DNA from: an uncultured Bacteroidota bacterium
GTDB lineage: Bacteria > Bacteroidota > Bacteroidia > Flavobacteriales > Flavobacteriaceae
Length of the DNA: 64,000 nucleotides
NCBI GenBank assembly: GCA_902590705.1
Contig: CACIXU010000001.1
Coordinates: forward strand, 154,001-218,000
Direction: 5' to 3'
In this document: piece by piece, positions 16,567-34,028 of the stretch
Layout: each line of letters begins with the position of its first letter
Numbering within the stretch: position 1 is the stretch's first letter
Notes under the pieces: generated by a model
What the model was told of the DNA's origin: nothing
Database searches by the model: none
Seen by the model: the letters and a program-made list of their open reading frames with translations, nothing else
Position numbers and translations under genes: made by a program

Positions 16567-17040
16567 ATGATATACAGAATGAGAGCCATTTTGGATACTG
16601 AGGAAGATGTTATCCGAGACTTTGAAATTGAAGCTAGTTCAAGCTTAGAAGAACTTCATGATGCGTTGTCCCAATCTTTTGGTTTTGCAGGTAATGAAAT
16701 GGCTTCTTTTTACCGTTCTGATGAGCAATGGAATCAAGGAGAGGAAATGCCATTGTTAGATATGGGGTTAGGAGAAAAGCCTATGAATGATAAACCCCTA
16801 GAAAAAATCCTTTCTGAATCTGATAATCGTTTAATCTACGTTTATGATTTTCTAAATCTTTGGACCTTTTATGTAGAGTTAATTGAAATTGCTCAAAAAG
16901 AAGTATCTAAAGGATACCCAAGTTTAATATTTAGCCACGGTGAAGTTCCTGAAACTCCTCCAAATAAGGAATTTGGGAGCTCAAATGATCTAAGCGATGA
17001 TTTAAAAACGAATGATGATGATTATGATAATTTTTACTAA
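16567..17040 (+). CDS. pRiA4b ORF-3-like (IS1096 TnpR-like) protein
   Basis: A 157-residue acidic protein resembling the plasmid pRiA4b ORF-3 family: an N-terminal YRMRAILDTEEDVIRDFEI, LHDALSQSFGFAGNEMASF in the middle, and YVYDFLNLWTFYVELIEI, where family members have a YDFGD-type strand. The final 20 residues are almost all aspartate, asparagine and glutamate. The family is named after passenger genes of mobile elements, but similar genes are stable chromosomal residents in flavobacteria, and no transposase or inverted repeat is near. Function is unknown. It starts 7 bases after the heme A synthase gene, and its stop interlocks with the convergent gene. Confidence 0.8.
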   Translation: MIYRMRAILDTEEDVIRDFEIEASSSLEELHDALSQSFGFAGNEMASFYRSDEQWNQGEEMPLLDMGLGEKPMNDKPLEKILSESDNRLIYVYDFLNLWTFYVELIEIAQKEVSKGYPSLIFSHGEVPETPPNKEFGSSNDLSDDLKTNDDDYDNFY

Positions 17041-18098
17041 AGCAAATCACTTAGGCTAACATTTTCATAATTTTTTCGTGTGTAATCAAATGCGGCCTGC
17101 ATCAACTCACCCATGGATTTGCTTTCTTTAAAAGCAGGATCATTGGTGAAAATAAAAATCTCGTTTTTAAGTTGGTCCAAATTTTCAGCAGTGGAGAGTA
17201 CATCATTTTTCATAATAGAAATCAAAAAATCAATACGATTTCCTGAATTGATTAATCTTCGGGAAAGAATAGAACGTTCTTCAATTTTATATTGAATAAT
17301 TGATTCATGATTTAGTTTCTCCTTAACAACCTTAATTAGTGGGTGATTTTCTTTAAAAAACTGAGGTCGATAAACAGATAACTTTCCTTCGAAACTTTGT
17401 TGATCAAAATCAATAGCTCTAATTCGATAGATTACGTGGTCAAAATCGTGAATAGGAATCACAACATAATTATAAGCTCGCATATCACCAAGGAGCCTAA
17501 TCATACAGCGCTCATTAAATTTTACATATTCTTTTGCAATTTGAGCTTTTTCTGATGAAGTGCAATCCGGTAAATAATCTTTAATAAAAATATCCCCAGG
17601 AATACCAGAAATATGCTCCTCAACTAATGTATCACTATTGACCATATAATTTAGGTTATATGGAGAAAGTATATGCTCAAATTCCAATCCATAAACTCTT
17701 GAAGCGTCAGTTTTTTTTACGTAGAAATAGGTGAAATTATCGTTTAAAATATTTCGGATTTTTATCCTAAAGGGTTTTGAATTTCCAAAGGTGCAGTAAT
17801 CAATTGCATCAATATTTAGGTCAGGTAAAGAAGAAATATTGCCATCAGAGTGAAGAGAAGTGTATATCGTTTTTAAATTAAAATCTATTTCTTCTCGCTC
17901 AGAATCAGAATAATAAACCCTAACCCAAAGAGTATCCTCATCATTTTTATTATAGACAGTAACTGAGCCTGAAAAACGTAATAGGTCGTCATAACATATT
18001 GAAATGTCCATCCAACGATCGTACTTTTTTAGAAAAAGTGACAACTTTTTGGAAATTGAAAAAAAAGGTTTTTTTTTCGAAATTAATTTTTCTTTCAC
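17037..18098 (-). CDS. Uncharacterised protein with protein-kinase-like motifs
   Basis: A 353-residue soluble protein, start GTG, that I do not recognise as a named family. A strand-rich N-terminal part (about 30-80) is followed by segments that line up with a kinase fold: Lys128 or Lys129 in YFYVKKTDA, Glu140/142 in LEFEH, a hinge-like EEHISGIPGD (160-169), GDMRAYNYV with Asp205 and Asn210 in the D-x4-N spacing of a catalytic loop, and AIDFDQQSFEG with Asp230 in a DFG-like place. The rest is helical. A matched promoter lies at 18113-18144. A kinase or ATP-grasping role is an inference only; the gene itself is convincing by length and promoter. Confidence 0.75.
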   Translation of the reverse strand: MKEKLISKKKPFFSISKKLSLFLKKYDRWMDISICYDDLLRFSGSVTVYNKNDEDTLWVRVYYSDSEREEIDFNLKTIYTSLHSDGNISSLPDLNIDAIDYCTFGNSKPFRIKIRNILNDNFTYFYVKKTDASRVYGLEFEHILSPYNLNYMVNSDTLVEEHISGIPGDIFIKDYLPDCTSSEKAQIAKEYVKFNERCMIRLLGDMRAYNYVVIPIHDFDHVIYRIRAIDFDQQSFEGKLSVYRPQFFKENHPLIKVVKEKLNHESIIQYKIEERSILSRRLINSGNRIDFLISIMKNDVLSTAENLDQLKNEIFIFTNDPAFKESKSMGELMQAAFDYTRKNYENVSLSDLL

Positions 18099-18112: not shown

Positions 18113-18144
18113 CAAAAATAACACCTTATTCTGAATTCATCCAA
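18113..18144 (-). promoter_or_regulatory. Bacteroidota-type promoter of the kinase-like gene
   Basis: On the minus strand TTG (18144-18142) and TATTTTTG (18120-18113) are 21 bases apart. Transcription would start about 18107, some 9 bases before the GTG start at 18098. It is divergent from the uvrB promoter. Confidence 0.55.
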
Positions 18145-18213: not shown

Positions 18214-20205
18214 ATGCAATTCAATCTTGAATCAAATTTTTTTCCAACAGGGGACCAACCCGAGGCAATTAGACAGATTGTAAATAGCTTTTCCGAAGGA
18301 GAAAAACACGTAACACTTCAAGGAGTGACTGGTTCGGGCAAGACATTTACTGTTGCCAATACTATAAAAGAATTGCAACGTCCTACGATAGTTTTAGCAC
18401 ACAATAAAACCCTTGCCGCACAGCTATACTCTGAATTCAAGCAATTTTTTCCAAATAACGCTGTGGAGTACTTTGTTTCTTACTATGATTATTACCAGCC
18501 AGAGGCCTACATTCCTGCCAGTGGACTCTACATCGAAAAAGATCTTTCCATTAATGAGGAAATTGAGAAATTGCGATTGAGTACTACCTCTTCTCTACTT
18601 TCCGGGAGAAGAGATGTATTAGTTGTTGCGTCAGTATCCTGTCTTTATGGGATTGGTAATCCAGTTGAGTTTGAAAAAAATGTAATTACGGTTGAAAAAG
18701 ATCAAGTAGTTTCAAGAACAAAATTACTTTACCAACTGGTCCAAAGTTTATATTCAAGAACTACTGGAGATTTTAATCGTGGTAACTTTAGGGTAAACGG
18801 TGATATTCTCGATATTTTTCCTGGATATACAGATATTGCCTTTAAAATACATTTTTTTGGAGATGAAATAGAGGAAATAGAGGCCTTTGATCCAATTGAA
18901 AATCGCGTTTTAGAGAATTACGAAAGTCTTAAAATTTTTCCTGCCAACATGTTTGTTACTTCTCCCGATATTCTTCAAAAAGCTATTAACGAAATTCAAG
19001 ATGATTTGACAAAACAAGTGGATTATTTTAAATCCATAGGTAGTTTTTTAGAGGCAAAAAGACTTCATGAGCGTACAGAATTTGATTTAGAAATGATAAG
19101 AGAACTAGGTTATTGTTCAGGTATAGAGAATTACTCTCGCTATTTGGACGGAAGAGACCCAGGGACGCGGCCATTTTGCTTGTTAGACTATTTCCCAAAT
19201 GATTATTTAATGGTTGTAGATGAAAGTCATGTCACTATTTCCCAGGTTCATGCCATGTATGGAGGAGATCGAAGTAGAAAAGAAAACCTTGTAAATTTTG
19301 GTTTTCGACTGCCTGCTGCAATGGATAACCGACCATTAAAATTTGAAGAATTTGAAGCACTACAAAATCAAGTTTTATATGTAAGTGCTACTCCAGCTGA
19401 TTATGAACTTAAACAAACAGAAGGTGTTTATGTTGAACAAGTTATTCGACCGACTGGTCTGTTGGATCCCGAAATTGAAATTCGACCTAGTCTAGACCAA
19501 ATTGACGACTTGATAGAGGAAATACAACAAAGAGTCGAAAAAAACGAACGTACATTAGTAACTACACTTACCAAAAGAATGGCAGAAGAATTGACTAAAT
19601 ATTTAAGTGGGCTAAATATTAGATCTCGCTACGTACATAGTGATGTCGATACATTAGAAAGAGTAGAAATCATGCAAGATTTAAGAAAGGGACTCTTTGA
19701 TGTTCTGGTCGGTGTTAACCTTCTTCGGGAAGGTTTGGATTTACCTGAAGTTTCATTAGTAGCTATCTTAGATGCAGATAAAGAAGGTTTTCTCAGAAGT
19801 CATCGTTCATTGACACAAACGGTCGGAAGGGCCGCGAGAAATGTTAATGGAAAAGCTGTAATGTATGCAGATAATGTTACCAAAAGCATGCAAAAAACTA
19901 TTGACCAGACAAACTACCGAAGGGATAAGCAACGTGCTTACAATCTAAAAAATAAAATAAAGCCAACTGCTCTGAATAAATCTTTAGATAATGCCCTTTC
20001 AAAAAATTCTGTTGCAACATTTGCTCAAGAATTAAGTGAGCGAAAGGCAGCAGAGGCAAAGAATCGTTTTTTGACTAAAGAACAAATTGAAAAGAAAATA
20101 AGAGTTTCCAGAAAAGAAATGGAAAAAGCAGCTAAGGATCTTGATTTTATTGAAGCAGCCCGTTTACGCGATGAAATAAAGTCATTACAAAACCAGTTAA
20201 AATAA
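18214..20205 (+). CDS. uvrB: Excinuclease ABC subunit B
   Basis: A full-length 663-residue UvrB, the damage-verifying helicase-like subunit of nucleotide excision repair. Walker A GVTGSGKT is at residues 37-44; the beta-hairpin that clamps DNA appears as YYDYYQPEAYIP; DESH Walker B, the FGFRLPAAMDNRPL motif and the helicase motifs VGVNLLREGLDLPEV and QTVGRAARN follow. A UVR domain closes the protein (EMEKAAKDLDFIEAARLRDE), the UvrC contact. It is a single-gene unit with a promoter just upstream and a hairpin just downstream. uvrA and uvrC are not in the window. Confidence 0.98.
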   Translation: MQFNLESNFFPTGDQPEAIRQIVNSFSEGEKHVTLQGVTGSGKTFTVANTIKELQRPTIVLAHNKTLAAQLYSEFKQFFPNNAVEYFVSYYDYYQPEAYIPASGLYIEKDLSINEEIEKLRLSTTSSLLSGRRDVLVVASVSCLYGIGNPVEFEKNVITVEKDQVVSRTKLLYQLVQSLYSRTTGDFNRGNFRVNGDILDIFPGYTDIAFKIHFFGDEIEEIEAFDPIENRVLENYESLKIFPANMFVTSPDILQKAINEIQDDLTKQVDYFKSIGSFLEAKRLHERTEFDLEMIRELGYCSGIENYSRYLDGRDPGTRPFCLLDYFPNDYLMVVDESHVTISQVHAMYGGDRSRKENLVNFGFRLPAAMDNRPLKFEEFEALQNQVLYVSATPADYELKQTEGVYVEQVIRPTGLLDPEIEIRPSLDQIDDLIEEIQQRVEKNERTLVTTLTKRMAEELTKYLSGLNIRSRYVHSDVDTLERVEIMQDLRKGLFDVLVGVNLLREGLDLPEVSLVAILDADKEGFLRSHRSLTQTVGRAARNVNGKAVMYADNVTKSMQKTIDQTNYRRDKQRAYNLKNKIKPTALNKSLDNALSKNSVATFAQELSERKAAEAKNRFLTKEQIEKKIRVSRKEMEKAAKDLDFIEAARLRDEIKSLQNQLK

Positions 20206-32423: not shown

Positions 32424-34028
32424 TTAAATTTCAACAAAAGTAAATTCATTCGAAAGTGGATCAAAAGTTTCCATCAAAAAAGAGTTAAAATCATTGCCAT
32501 TTTCTAGATAAAAAACACTGAAGTTCTCCACACGCTCTTGAAGATTACCTCCAGGAAATAACTCCTCATGAATTAATACCAAACGTTCAACTTGATCTTT
32601 TAATTTCTTTTTTTGTGCTTTTAATAGCCTTTTCTCCAAATGATCAATCCCTTTAAGTTGTTTTGATTTCTGAGCTCTGACAGCTCCTTCAAATGAGGCA
32701 TCTGTTTTATTGATTAAAACCTCCAACTGATTAAATTTTATTTCCAAATCATTTTTCAATGGAGACAAATCCAAATCAATATTGCTAATTTGCCTAACTT
32801 TTTTATTAATCAAGGCATTTTTTTTGAGTAATAGGTCAGTTAAATCTAATTTTAGATTTCGAATTTTCTTAGCACTTTTTCCAGGAATGATCAAAGCCAT
32901 ATTACGCAAACATAATATTGGAAATAATAATTTTTGAGAATCGAAAAAAGATTTTAACTCTAACCAATAAGCCAACTCTGCTCCCCCACCAAAATAGGCT
33001 ATATTAGGAAGTATAAGTTCTTGATAAAGTGGTCGTAATAGGACGTTGGGTGAAAATTTTTCAGGATTTTGATCTACTTTATCCATTATTTCATTAACGG
33101 AAAAAATTTGATCTGAACCCTCTAAAACATAACCGTTTTCAATTTTCATAATCCGACTTCGCCGCCCATCTTGAAGTAAAAAAAGATTTACTTCTCTTGG
33201 GTTTACTTGAGGTTTAAAAGCTTTGGAATAGTTTTTTTTAATCGATGCAATTTGATTTAAAACTTGCTGATTACATATATGATGAAGTAAATCCTCTTTT
33301 ATTATTGGTCTAAAGTAATGTTTCAATTCGCGATGATTAGCATCTAGGATTACAAGTCCATAATGACCAAACAAATGATTGACAAAAATACGAGTCGCAT
33401 CAGAGAGATTATTTCCCGATTCATAACTTCGTTCAATCAAGTCTTTAAGCTTTACTCCGTCTATACTATCTCCTAATTCCTTTTTAAATAGATCCAATAA
33501 AGAGGATAAACTTTCCGTTTTAATTTTACCAACTGGACCCCCTTCAGTACTCCTCCATTGAAACTTTTTACCTTTAAAAATAAAGGAACTTATCTCTTCA
33601 TAATCATGATCCTCAGATGCCATCCAATATACAGGAACAAAATCCAAATCTGAAAATTTTTTCTTTAATTGTTGCGAAAGTTTAATGGTGCTGATAATTT
33701 TATAAATAAAATAAAGTGGTCCTGTCATCAAACATAATTGATGCCCTGTAGTAATAGTTAAAGTGGTTTTTTTTTCAAGTAATTTGATATGCTCAACAAC
33801 CTTAGGAGAAGTCTCAATCCCCTTATATTGCATAGCCAACACATTGCAAAGAGATGACCTGATGTCATAGGGATAGGTCGCTTTTTTTTTTAGTGCCTGT
33901 CTGTATAAGTTTTCAAATGAAGGAACACCGTTATGATAGGCTTTAAGTCCTTGGTCACCTTCCAAGTAATCGCATATAAGCCCGGAAACAAATCCAGTAT
34001 CACGAAGTGGAAGATATTGCGCTTTCAT
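32424..34028 (-). CDS. bshC: Putative cysteine ligase BshC (bacillithiol synthesis)
   Basis: A 534-residue protein of the BshC family, which adds cysteine to glucosaminyl-malate in the last step of bacillithiol synthesis. The core motif TTGHQLCLMTGPLYFIYKI near residue 95 and VPVYWMASEDHDYEEI near 132 are diagnostic; FGGGAELAYWLELKSFFD lies further on. A long coiled coil (about 395-500) separates the Rossmann part from the end. It is in a run of unrelated housekeeping genes, 34 bases after rimO; bshA and bshB are not in the window, so the pathway is inferred from this one gene. Confidence 0.92.
   Translation of the reverse strand: MKAQYLPLRDTGFVSGLICDYLEGDQGLKAYHNGVPSFENLYRQALKKKATYPYDIRSSLCNVLAMQYKGIETSPKVVEHIKLLEKKTTLTITTGHQLCLMTGPLYFIYKIISTIKLSQQLKKKFSDLDFVPVYWMASEDHDYEEISSFIFKGKKFQWRSTEGGPVGKIKTESLSSLLDLFKKELGDSIDGVKLKDLIERSYESGNNLSDATRIFVNHLFGHYGLVILDANHRELKHYFRPIIKEDLLHHICNQQVLNQIASIKKNYSKAFKPQVNPREVNLFLLQDGRRSRIMKIENGYVLEGSDQIFSVNEIMDKVDQNPEKFSPNVLLRPLYQELILPNIAYFGGGAELAYWLELKSFFDSQKLLFPILCLRNMALIIPGKSAKKIRNLKLDLTDLLLKKNALINKKVRQISNIDLDLSPLKNDLEIKFNQLEVLINKTDASFEGAVRAQKSKQLKGIDHLEKRLLKAQKKKLKDQVERLVLIHEELFPGGNLQERVENFSVFYLENGNDFNSFLMETFDPLSNEFTFVEI

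Follow-up and report, generated by a model that had tools for sequence, protein, structure and literature searches.

A Bacteroidota-wide family of kinase-like proteins whose predicted fold lies nearest to PI3K/PIKK kinases

HipA toxin kinases (PF07804) are bacterial kinases of the protein-kinase-like (PKL) fold, and aminoglycoside phosphotransferases (APH) carry the catalytic pattern HGDLHxxN...IDFD. Proteins of the kinase fold can also be AMPylators, as SelO is, or catalytically dead; pseudokinases usually lose some of the catalytic Lys/Asp/Asn/Asp residues. Two recently described and widespread bacterial PKL families, Lani_1194 and Lcin_0519, contain a methyltransferase domain in 94-96% of their members and have no identifiable alpha-C glutamate, and in Lani_1194, which is reported in Flavobacteriales too, Arg replaces the catalytic Lys (PMC9758233). 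The family analysed here has no second domain and keeps the Lys and the Glu. A description of it was not found in the literature searched; Bacteroidetes signature proteins are tabulated in PMC1887533.

The gene lies in a stretch of 64,000 nucleotides of flavobacterial DNA (the window), in which an earlier, sequence-only reading had pointed to an unnamed protein with a kinase-like catalytic pattern. The open reading frame exists as described: it occupies 17037-18098 of the minus strand, starts with GTG at 18098 and encodes 353 aa in 18098-17040, after which the stop codon follows. The start position is supported by the relatives, in which the corresponding codon is likewise the start and reads GTG or ATG. 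Together with a pairwise dN/dS of about 0.04-0.12 among close relatives (pairs where it is computable), the shared start indicates a real gene under purifying selection. The further proposal that the gene has its own promoter is not established: a sigma-70 scan gives one weak site against 1.9 expected by chance, which is not significant, and the element listed first below was matched by eye to the Bacteroidota-type promoter consensus. The features of the gene and its predicted product are as follows.

18113 to 18144, minus strand: possible Bacteroidota-type promoter, TTGG-N20-TATTTTTG (read from 18144 to 18113), 14 nt before the start codon; by eye.
17037 to 18098, minus strand: kinase-like gene, 353 aa and stop; start position in relatives and dN/dS 0.04-0.12.
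17766 to 17795, minus strand: residues 102-111, CTFGNSKPFR, loop joining strand 1 to strand 2, a candidate P-loop for phosphate binding; model strands 94-101 and 110-116 and conservation, role putative.
17715 to 17717, minus strand: Lys128, candidate ATP-binding beta-3 lysine; end of model strand 121-129, kept in 89 of 89 sequences.
17676 to 17708, minus strand: residues 131-141, DASRVYGLEFE, helix alpha-C with D131, R134, E139 and E141, including the candidate salt-bridge acid; model helix 132-144.
17592 to 17627, minus strand: residues 158-169, LVEEHISGIPGD, comprising the hinge strand and the first part of helix D; model strand 157-161 and helix 168-178, with E160, H162, G165 and P167 invariant.
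17469 to 17489, minus strand: residues 204-210, GDMRAYN, catalytic loop, with D205 as proposed catalytic base and N210 as proposed metal ligand; conservation, pLDDT below 50 at 204-206.
17397 to 17414, minus strand: residues 229-234, IDFDQQ, DFG-equivalent, with D230 as proposed metal ligand and D232 and Q233 family-specific and invariant; conservation.
17346 to 17372, minus strand: residues 243-251, YRPQFFKEN, activation-loop-like conserved segment, likely substrate-binding; Y243, P245 and N251 invariant, role putative.
17064 to 17309, minus strand: residues 264-345, helical C-lobe; model, inside the PI3K structural alignments (VIA-align model ranges 16-348 and 14-351).

The catalytic pattern can be followed through a family alignment of 89 rows, nearly all from distinct genomes (two loci occur about twice), in which identity falls to 35%. 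K128, E141, D205, N210 and D230 are invariant in all 89 rows, and E139 is Glu in 88 and Asp in one. Most of what the sequence-only reading had picked out is found where it was expected, namely the hinge-like segment EEHISGIPGD (residues 160-169), the Asp205-x4-Asn210 pair in GDMRAYN and the IDFD motif (I229-D230-F231-D232). Its two helix C glutamates are also present, but their true numbers are E139 and E141, each one lower than given. The segment YFYVKK offered Lys128 or Lys129 as the catalytic lysine; both residues are there, yet position 129 varies (Lys in 59 rows, Arg in 14, others in the remainder) and K128 does not, which makes K128 the candidate. The expected invariance in homologues thus holds for K128, D205, N210 and D230 and fails for K129. 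Further invariant positions, in a list that is not exhaustive, are C102, N106, P109, R111, R134, G137, G204, F231, D232 and Q233, together with those of the hinge and the activation-loop-like segment; D131 is kept in all 88 readable rows.

IDFD occurs in nearly all members and its DFD in every row, and the catalytic loop reads GDMRxYN in most. Position 207 is His in 12 of the 89 rows, mostly as GDMH(S/A)GN, and some deep members carry GDMH(S/A)GN...(R)PIDFDQQ. Such catalytic loops are of the classic phosphotransferase type, close to the GDxHxxN of PI3K and APH, and strengthen the kinase reading. In a second alignment (A2, 47 rows) 35 columns are invariant, and if the five catalytic positions were random columns the probability of all five falling among them would be about 7e-6, a figure that serves as a guide only because the motif was picked by a reader looking for it.

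Two AlphaFold2 models were compared. The first was built from the window protein and 49 relatives (pLDDT 75.7, pTM 0.76). The second had another protein as its first sequence, with 28 relatives in an alignment disjoint from that of the first (pLDDT 74.9, pTM 0.75); the same elements appear in both. The order of elements in the first model is that of a kinase: b-b-b(K)-aC(E)-hinge-aD-aE-catalytic loop-b-b-DFD. It begins with strands 94-101, 110-116 and 121-129 (with K128), helix 132-144 (with E139 and E141) and the hinge strand 157-161, followed by helices 168-178 and 181-204, the catalytic loop, strands 211-218 and 221-228, and then D230. In both models confidence is low at the catalytic loop and in the loop that follows DFD; segment 242-249 is also of low confidence. 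As predicted, the protein combines structural and sequence features of the PKL superfamily: a two-lobed fold with a strand 3 Lys and a helix C Glu in the models, and, by alignment, a catalytic Asp-x4-Asn and a DFx Asp conserved throughout (D205, N210 and D230, 89/89).

Foldseek comparison of both models with the PDB returns kinases or pseudokinases in all of the best 50 rows, and most of the top viral matches to the predicted fold are kinases as well. The scores are modest (best E-values of 1e-4 and 1.8e-3, TM about 0.3), and these modest scores, with the absence of profile similarity, would suit a motif that arose by chance on a fold unrelated to kinases. Such a coincidence is very improbable, since two independent models agree, their elements follow the kinase order and every predicted catalytic residue is invariant. 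The kinase-like fold that had been proposed is, on the models, very likely.

A second look at the Foldseek candidates with VIA-align, again on the predicted models, narrows the resemblance. For the first model PIK3C3 ranks first (Z 12.2, rmsd 4.7 A, 275 residues), PI3K/PIKK chains occupy ranks 1-21, and the best non-PI3K chain is Bud32 at Z 7.2. For the second, VPS34 ranks first (Z 10.9, rmsd 4.8 A, 278 residues), and each of the 50 rows listed is a PI3K, mTOR or a PIKK-related subunit of the SAGA complex. Apart from a choline kinase at Z 6.4 for the first model, HipA and APH chains are absent among the rows listed for both. The kinase-like fold suggested from the order and spacing of residues in protein kinases and aminoglycoside phosphotransferases is upheld in the models; among the rows listed, the nearest solved folds are PI3K/PIKK and not APH or HipA.

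PI3K/PI4K/PIKK enzymes (PF00454; VPS34/PIK3C3, PI3K gamma, mTOR), a group familiar from animals and yeast, are the best structural match to both models. About 275 residues are aligned, spanning almost all of the protein, and other kinases score far lower. PI3K/PI4K/PIKK enzymes and the present family share the order of catalytic residues and a helical C-lobe after the DF motif. By eye, the spacing K128-x2-D131-x2-R134 equals that of KxGDDLR in PIK3C3 and PI3K gamma, and in a MAFFT alignment GDM(R/H)xxN and IDFD fall in register with GDRHxxN and IDFG of PI3K/PIKK. Deep members of the family add the His, as GDMHxGN. These likenesses would fit a true prokaryotic branch of PI3K/PI4K/PIKK by shared ancestry, which kept the GDxHxxN...IDF order and the helical C-lobe. 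However, the His is confined to 12 of 89 rows, IDFD stands in place of IDFG, and sequence similarity to these kinases is not detectable: PF00454 matches neither the window protein, nor any of 47 diverse family members, nor any protein in 148 Bacteroidota genomes. An hhalign comparison with a profile of four sequences (PIK3C3, PIK3CG, MTOR and PI4KA) gives a probability of 0.1%, the profiles being small; the first three of these sequences are identical to the PDB over the aligned stretch and that of PI4KA differs at one residue near the C-terminus. The bacterial protein also stands alone at 353 aa and has none of the large flanking domains of those kinases. Short motif matches such as the register and the K-x2-D-x2-R spacing do not prove common ancestry with PI3K. 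Among readings of the family's origin, kinship with PI3K/PIKK leads; it is drawn mainly from predicted shape and is tentative, with clearly less than an even chance. More doubtful is its fuller form, in which Bacteroidota have a core branch of the PI3K/PIKK group of their own, inherited mostly vertically; the protein, a minimal kinase of 353 residues that stands free, would then mark a prokaryotic relative of VPS34, PI3K and mTOR or their precursor. If the resemblance does reflect ancestry, it bears on the origin of that kinase group.

The catalytic loop of the deep members is also what might be expected of an enzyme of the aminoglycoside/choline kinase type (APH/ELK) that phosphorylates a small molecule, a metabolite, as GDMH(S/A)GN...IDFD comes close to the APH pattern and these phosphotransferases (PF01636) share GD(M/L)HxxN...IDFD. 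The APH profile scored best of the three family profiles used in hhalign, on the catalytic loop only and insignificantly, and a choline kinase appears in the structural list. Against this, the PF01636 profile matches neither the window protein nor the 47 members, the choline kinase is the only such enzyme among the structural rows listed, with APH chains missing from the top, and the protein has an N-terminal extension of about 90 residues (1-93). We consider an enzyme of this type rather unlikely.

HipA shares with the present family the status of a bacterial PKL-fold kinase. It differs in that its profile (PF07804, HipA_C) has no match in the window protein or the 47 members and no hhalign signal, that neither a HipB-like antitoxin nor a HipA N-terminal domain is encoded by the neighbours in the window, and that the present family is mostly single-copy and apparently vertically inherited. 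Across the HipA, APH and PI3K/PIKK sets no hhalign alignment is significant, and membership in any of these families is not shown by a profile link. More broadly, whatever sequence searches returned from Pfam, NCBIfam, PHROGs, PADLOC and the PDB were chance matches below threshold, among them a plant Tudor domain (E 0.002), and the 47 members have no credible match in Pfam or NCBIfam. Within these collections, the earlier statement that the protein has no named family is correct.

On balance, the protein is probably an active, soluble, cytoplasmic ATP-dependent phosphotransferase of the PKL fold, in an undescribed family found across Bacteroidota and nearest in predicted shape to PI3K/PIKK. 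As every canonical residue is invariant, catalytic activity is likely. From the residues and the models we infer a division of labour in ATP binding, catalysis, metal coordination and substrate docking. ATP-Mg would sit between the small lobe (strands 94-129) and the helical large lobe, with K128 kept in place by an acidic residue from helix 132-144. D205 would act as the catalytic base and N210 and D230 would bind metals, and the gamma phosphate would pass to one conserved substrate docked on the invariant segment QQSxEG...YxPQFxxEN. A protein or a polar metabolite is a more likely substrate than an inositol lipid, given the absence of any membrane-spanning segment (hydropathy over 19 residues peaks at 0.9).

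Two departures from phosphotransfer deserve mention. Where DFG would stand, the family has an invariant DFDQ motif of its own, and this motif and the unusual loop CxFGNSxPFR could belong to a nucleotide binder with other chemistry, such as SelO-type AMP transfer or the activity of a UbiB-like ATPase; this is improbable, as the canonical phosphotransfer residues are all kept and nothing is specific to AMP transfer. A pseudokinase or scaffold that has given up catalysis would agree with the finding of neither a substrate nor a partner, but the invariance of K128, D205, N210 and D230 over the phylum makes it less probable still.

As to distribution, the gene is chromosomal and mostly present as a single copy per genome. 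It was found in 35 of 60 near relatives, in 70 of the 75 genomes sampled from the window's own family (about 93%, counted from the table), in 118 of 395 genomes of an order-level sample and, by profile search, in 99 of 395 genomes of a phylum-level sample that includes other classes. The proposal of an undescribed flavobacterial kinase-like enzyme holds, within the databases and literature searched, for the lack of a description and, in the models, for the kinase likeness, but the family is phylum-wide and not only flavobacterial. Identity declines from 98-77% in the genus to 55-66% in the family and 35-55% beyond, which fits mostly vertical descent, and no relative occurs in the plasmid, phage and viral contig collections. 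The gene is missing from many sampled genomes of the phylum and from five near-complete genomes of the window's own family (G216, G231, G256, G281 and G301); because it is absent from such near-complete relatives, it is dispensable in some lineages and not universally needed. Of the Bacteroidota genomes sampled, between a quarter and a third carry this unnamed conserved family. Should it be an active kinase, one more phosphorylation step would enter the physiology of a major phylum whose members live in the sea, in soil and with hosts. Being small, soluble and dispensable in some relatives, the protein is directly testable. One genome (G510) contains two diverged copies of the family, at loci L194 and L195, the first of which adjoins a ClpX-like gene.

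The neighbours of the gene in the window are PRiA4_ORF3, CtaA/COX15 and UvrB. As the sequence-only reading had said, the gene lies beside uvrB (18214-20205), in divergent orientation; this neighbourhood is uninformative as to function. The PRiA4_ORF3 gene (PF07929; 16567-17040, plus strand) converges on the kinase-like gene, and their 3' ends overlap by 4 bases. Conservation of uvrB, ctaA and PRiA4_ORF3 as neighbours is limited to the family, and no neighbour is conserved across the phylum or points to a substrate. In seven deep-branching genomes (loci L184, L187, L188, L189, L190, L191 and L193) a profile-confirmed bshA, for bacillithiol glycosyltransferase, directly precedes the kinase gene on the same strand at about 35-155 bases, and at an eighth locus (L185) the gene in this position is bshA-like, judged by reading frame. 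A link to bacillithiol gains no support from co-distribution: bshA is above the cut-off in 73 of 78 genomes tested and equally present in those free of the kinase gene, so that its adjacency fixes no function. No bshA above the cut-off was found in the window's genome, which is 83% complete. The window does contain bshC (bacillithiol synthase), at 32442-33986 on the minus strand, about 14 kb from the kinase gene.
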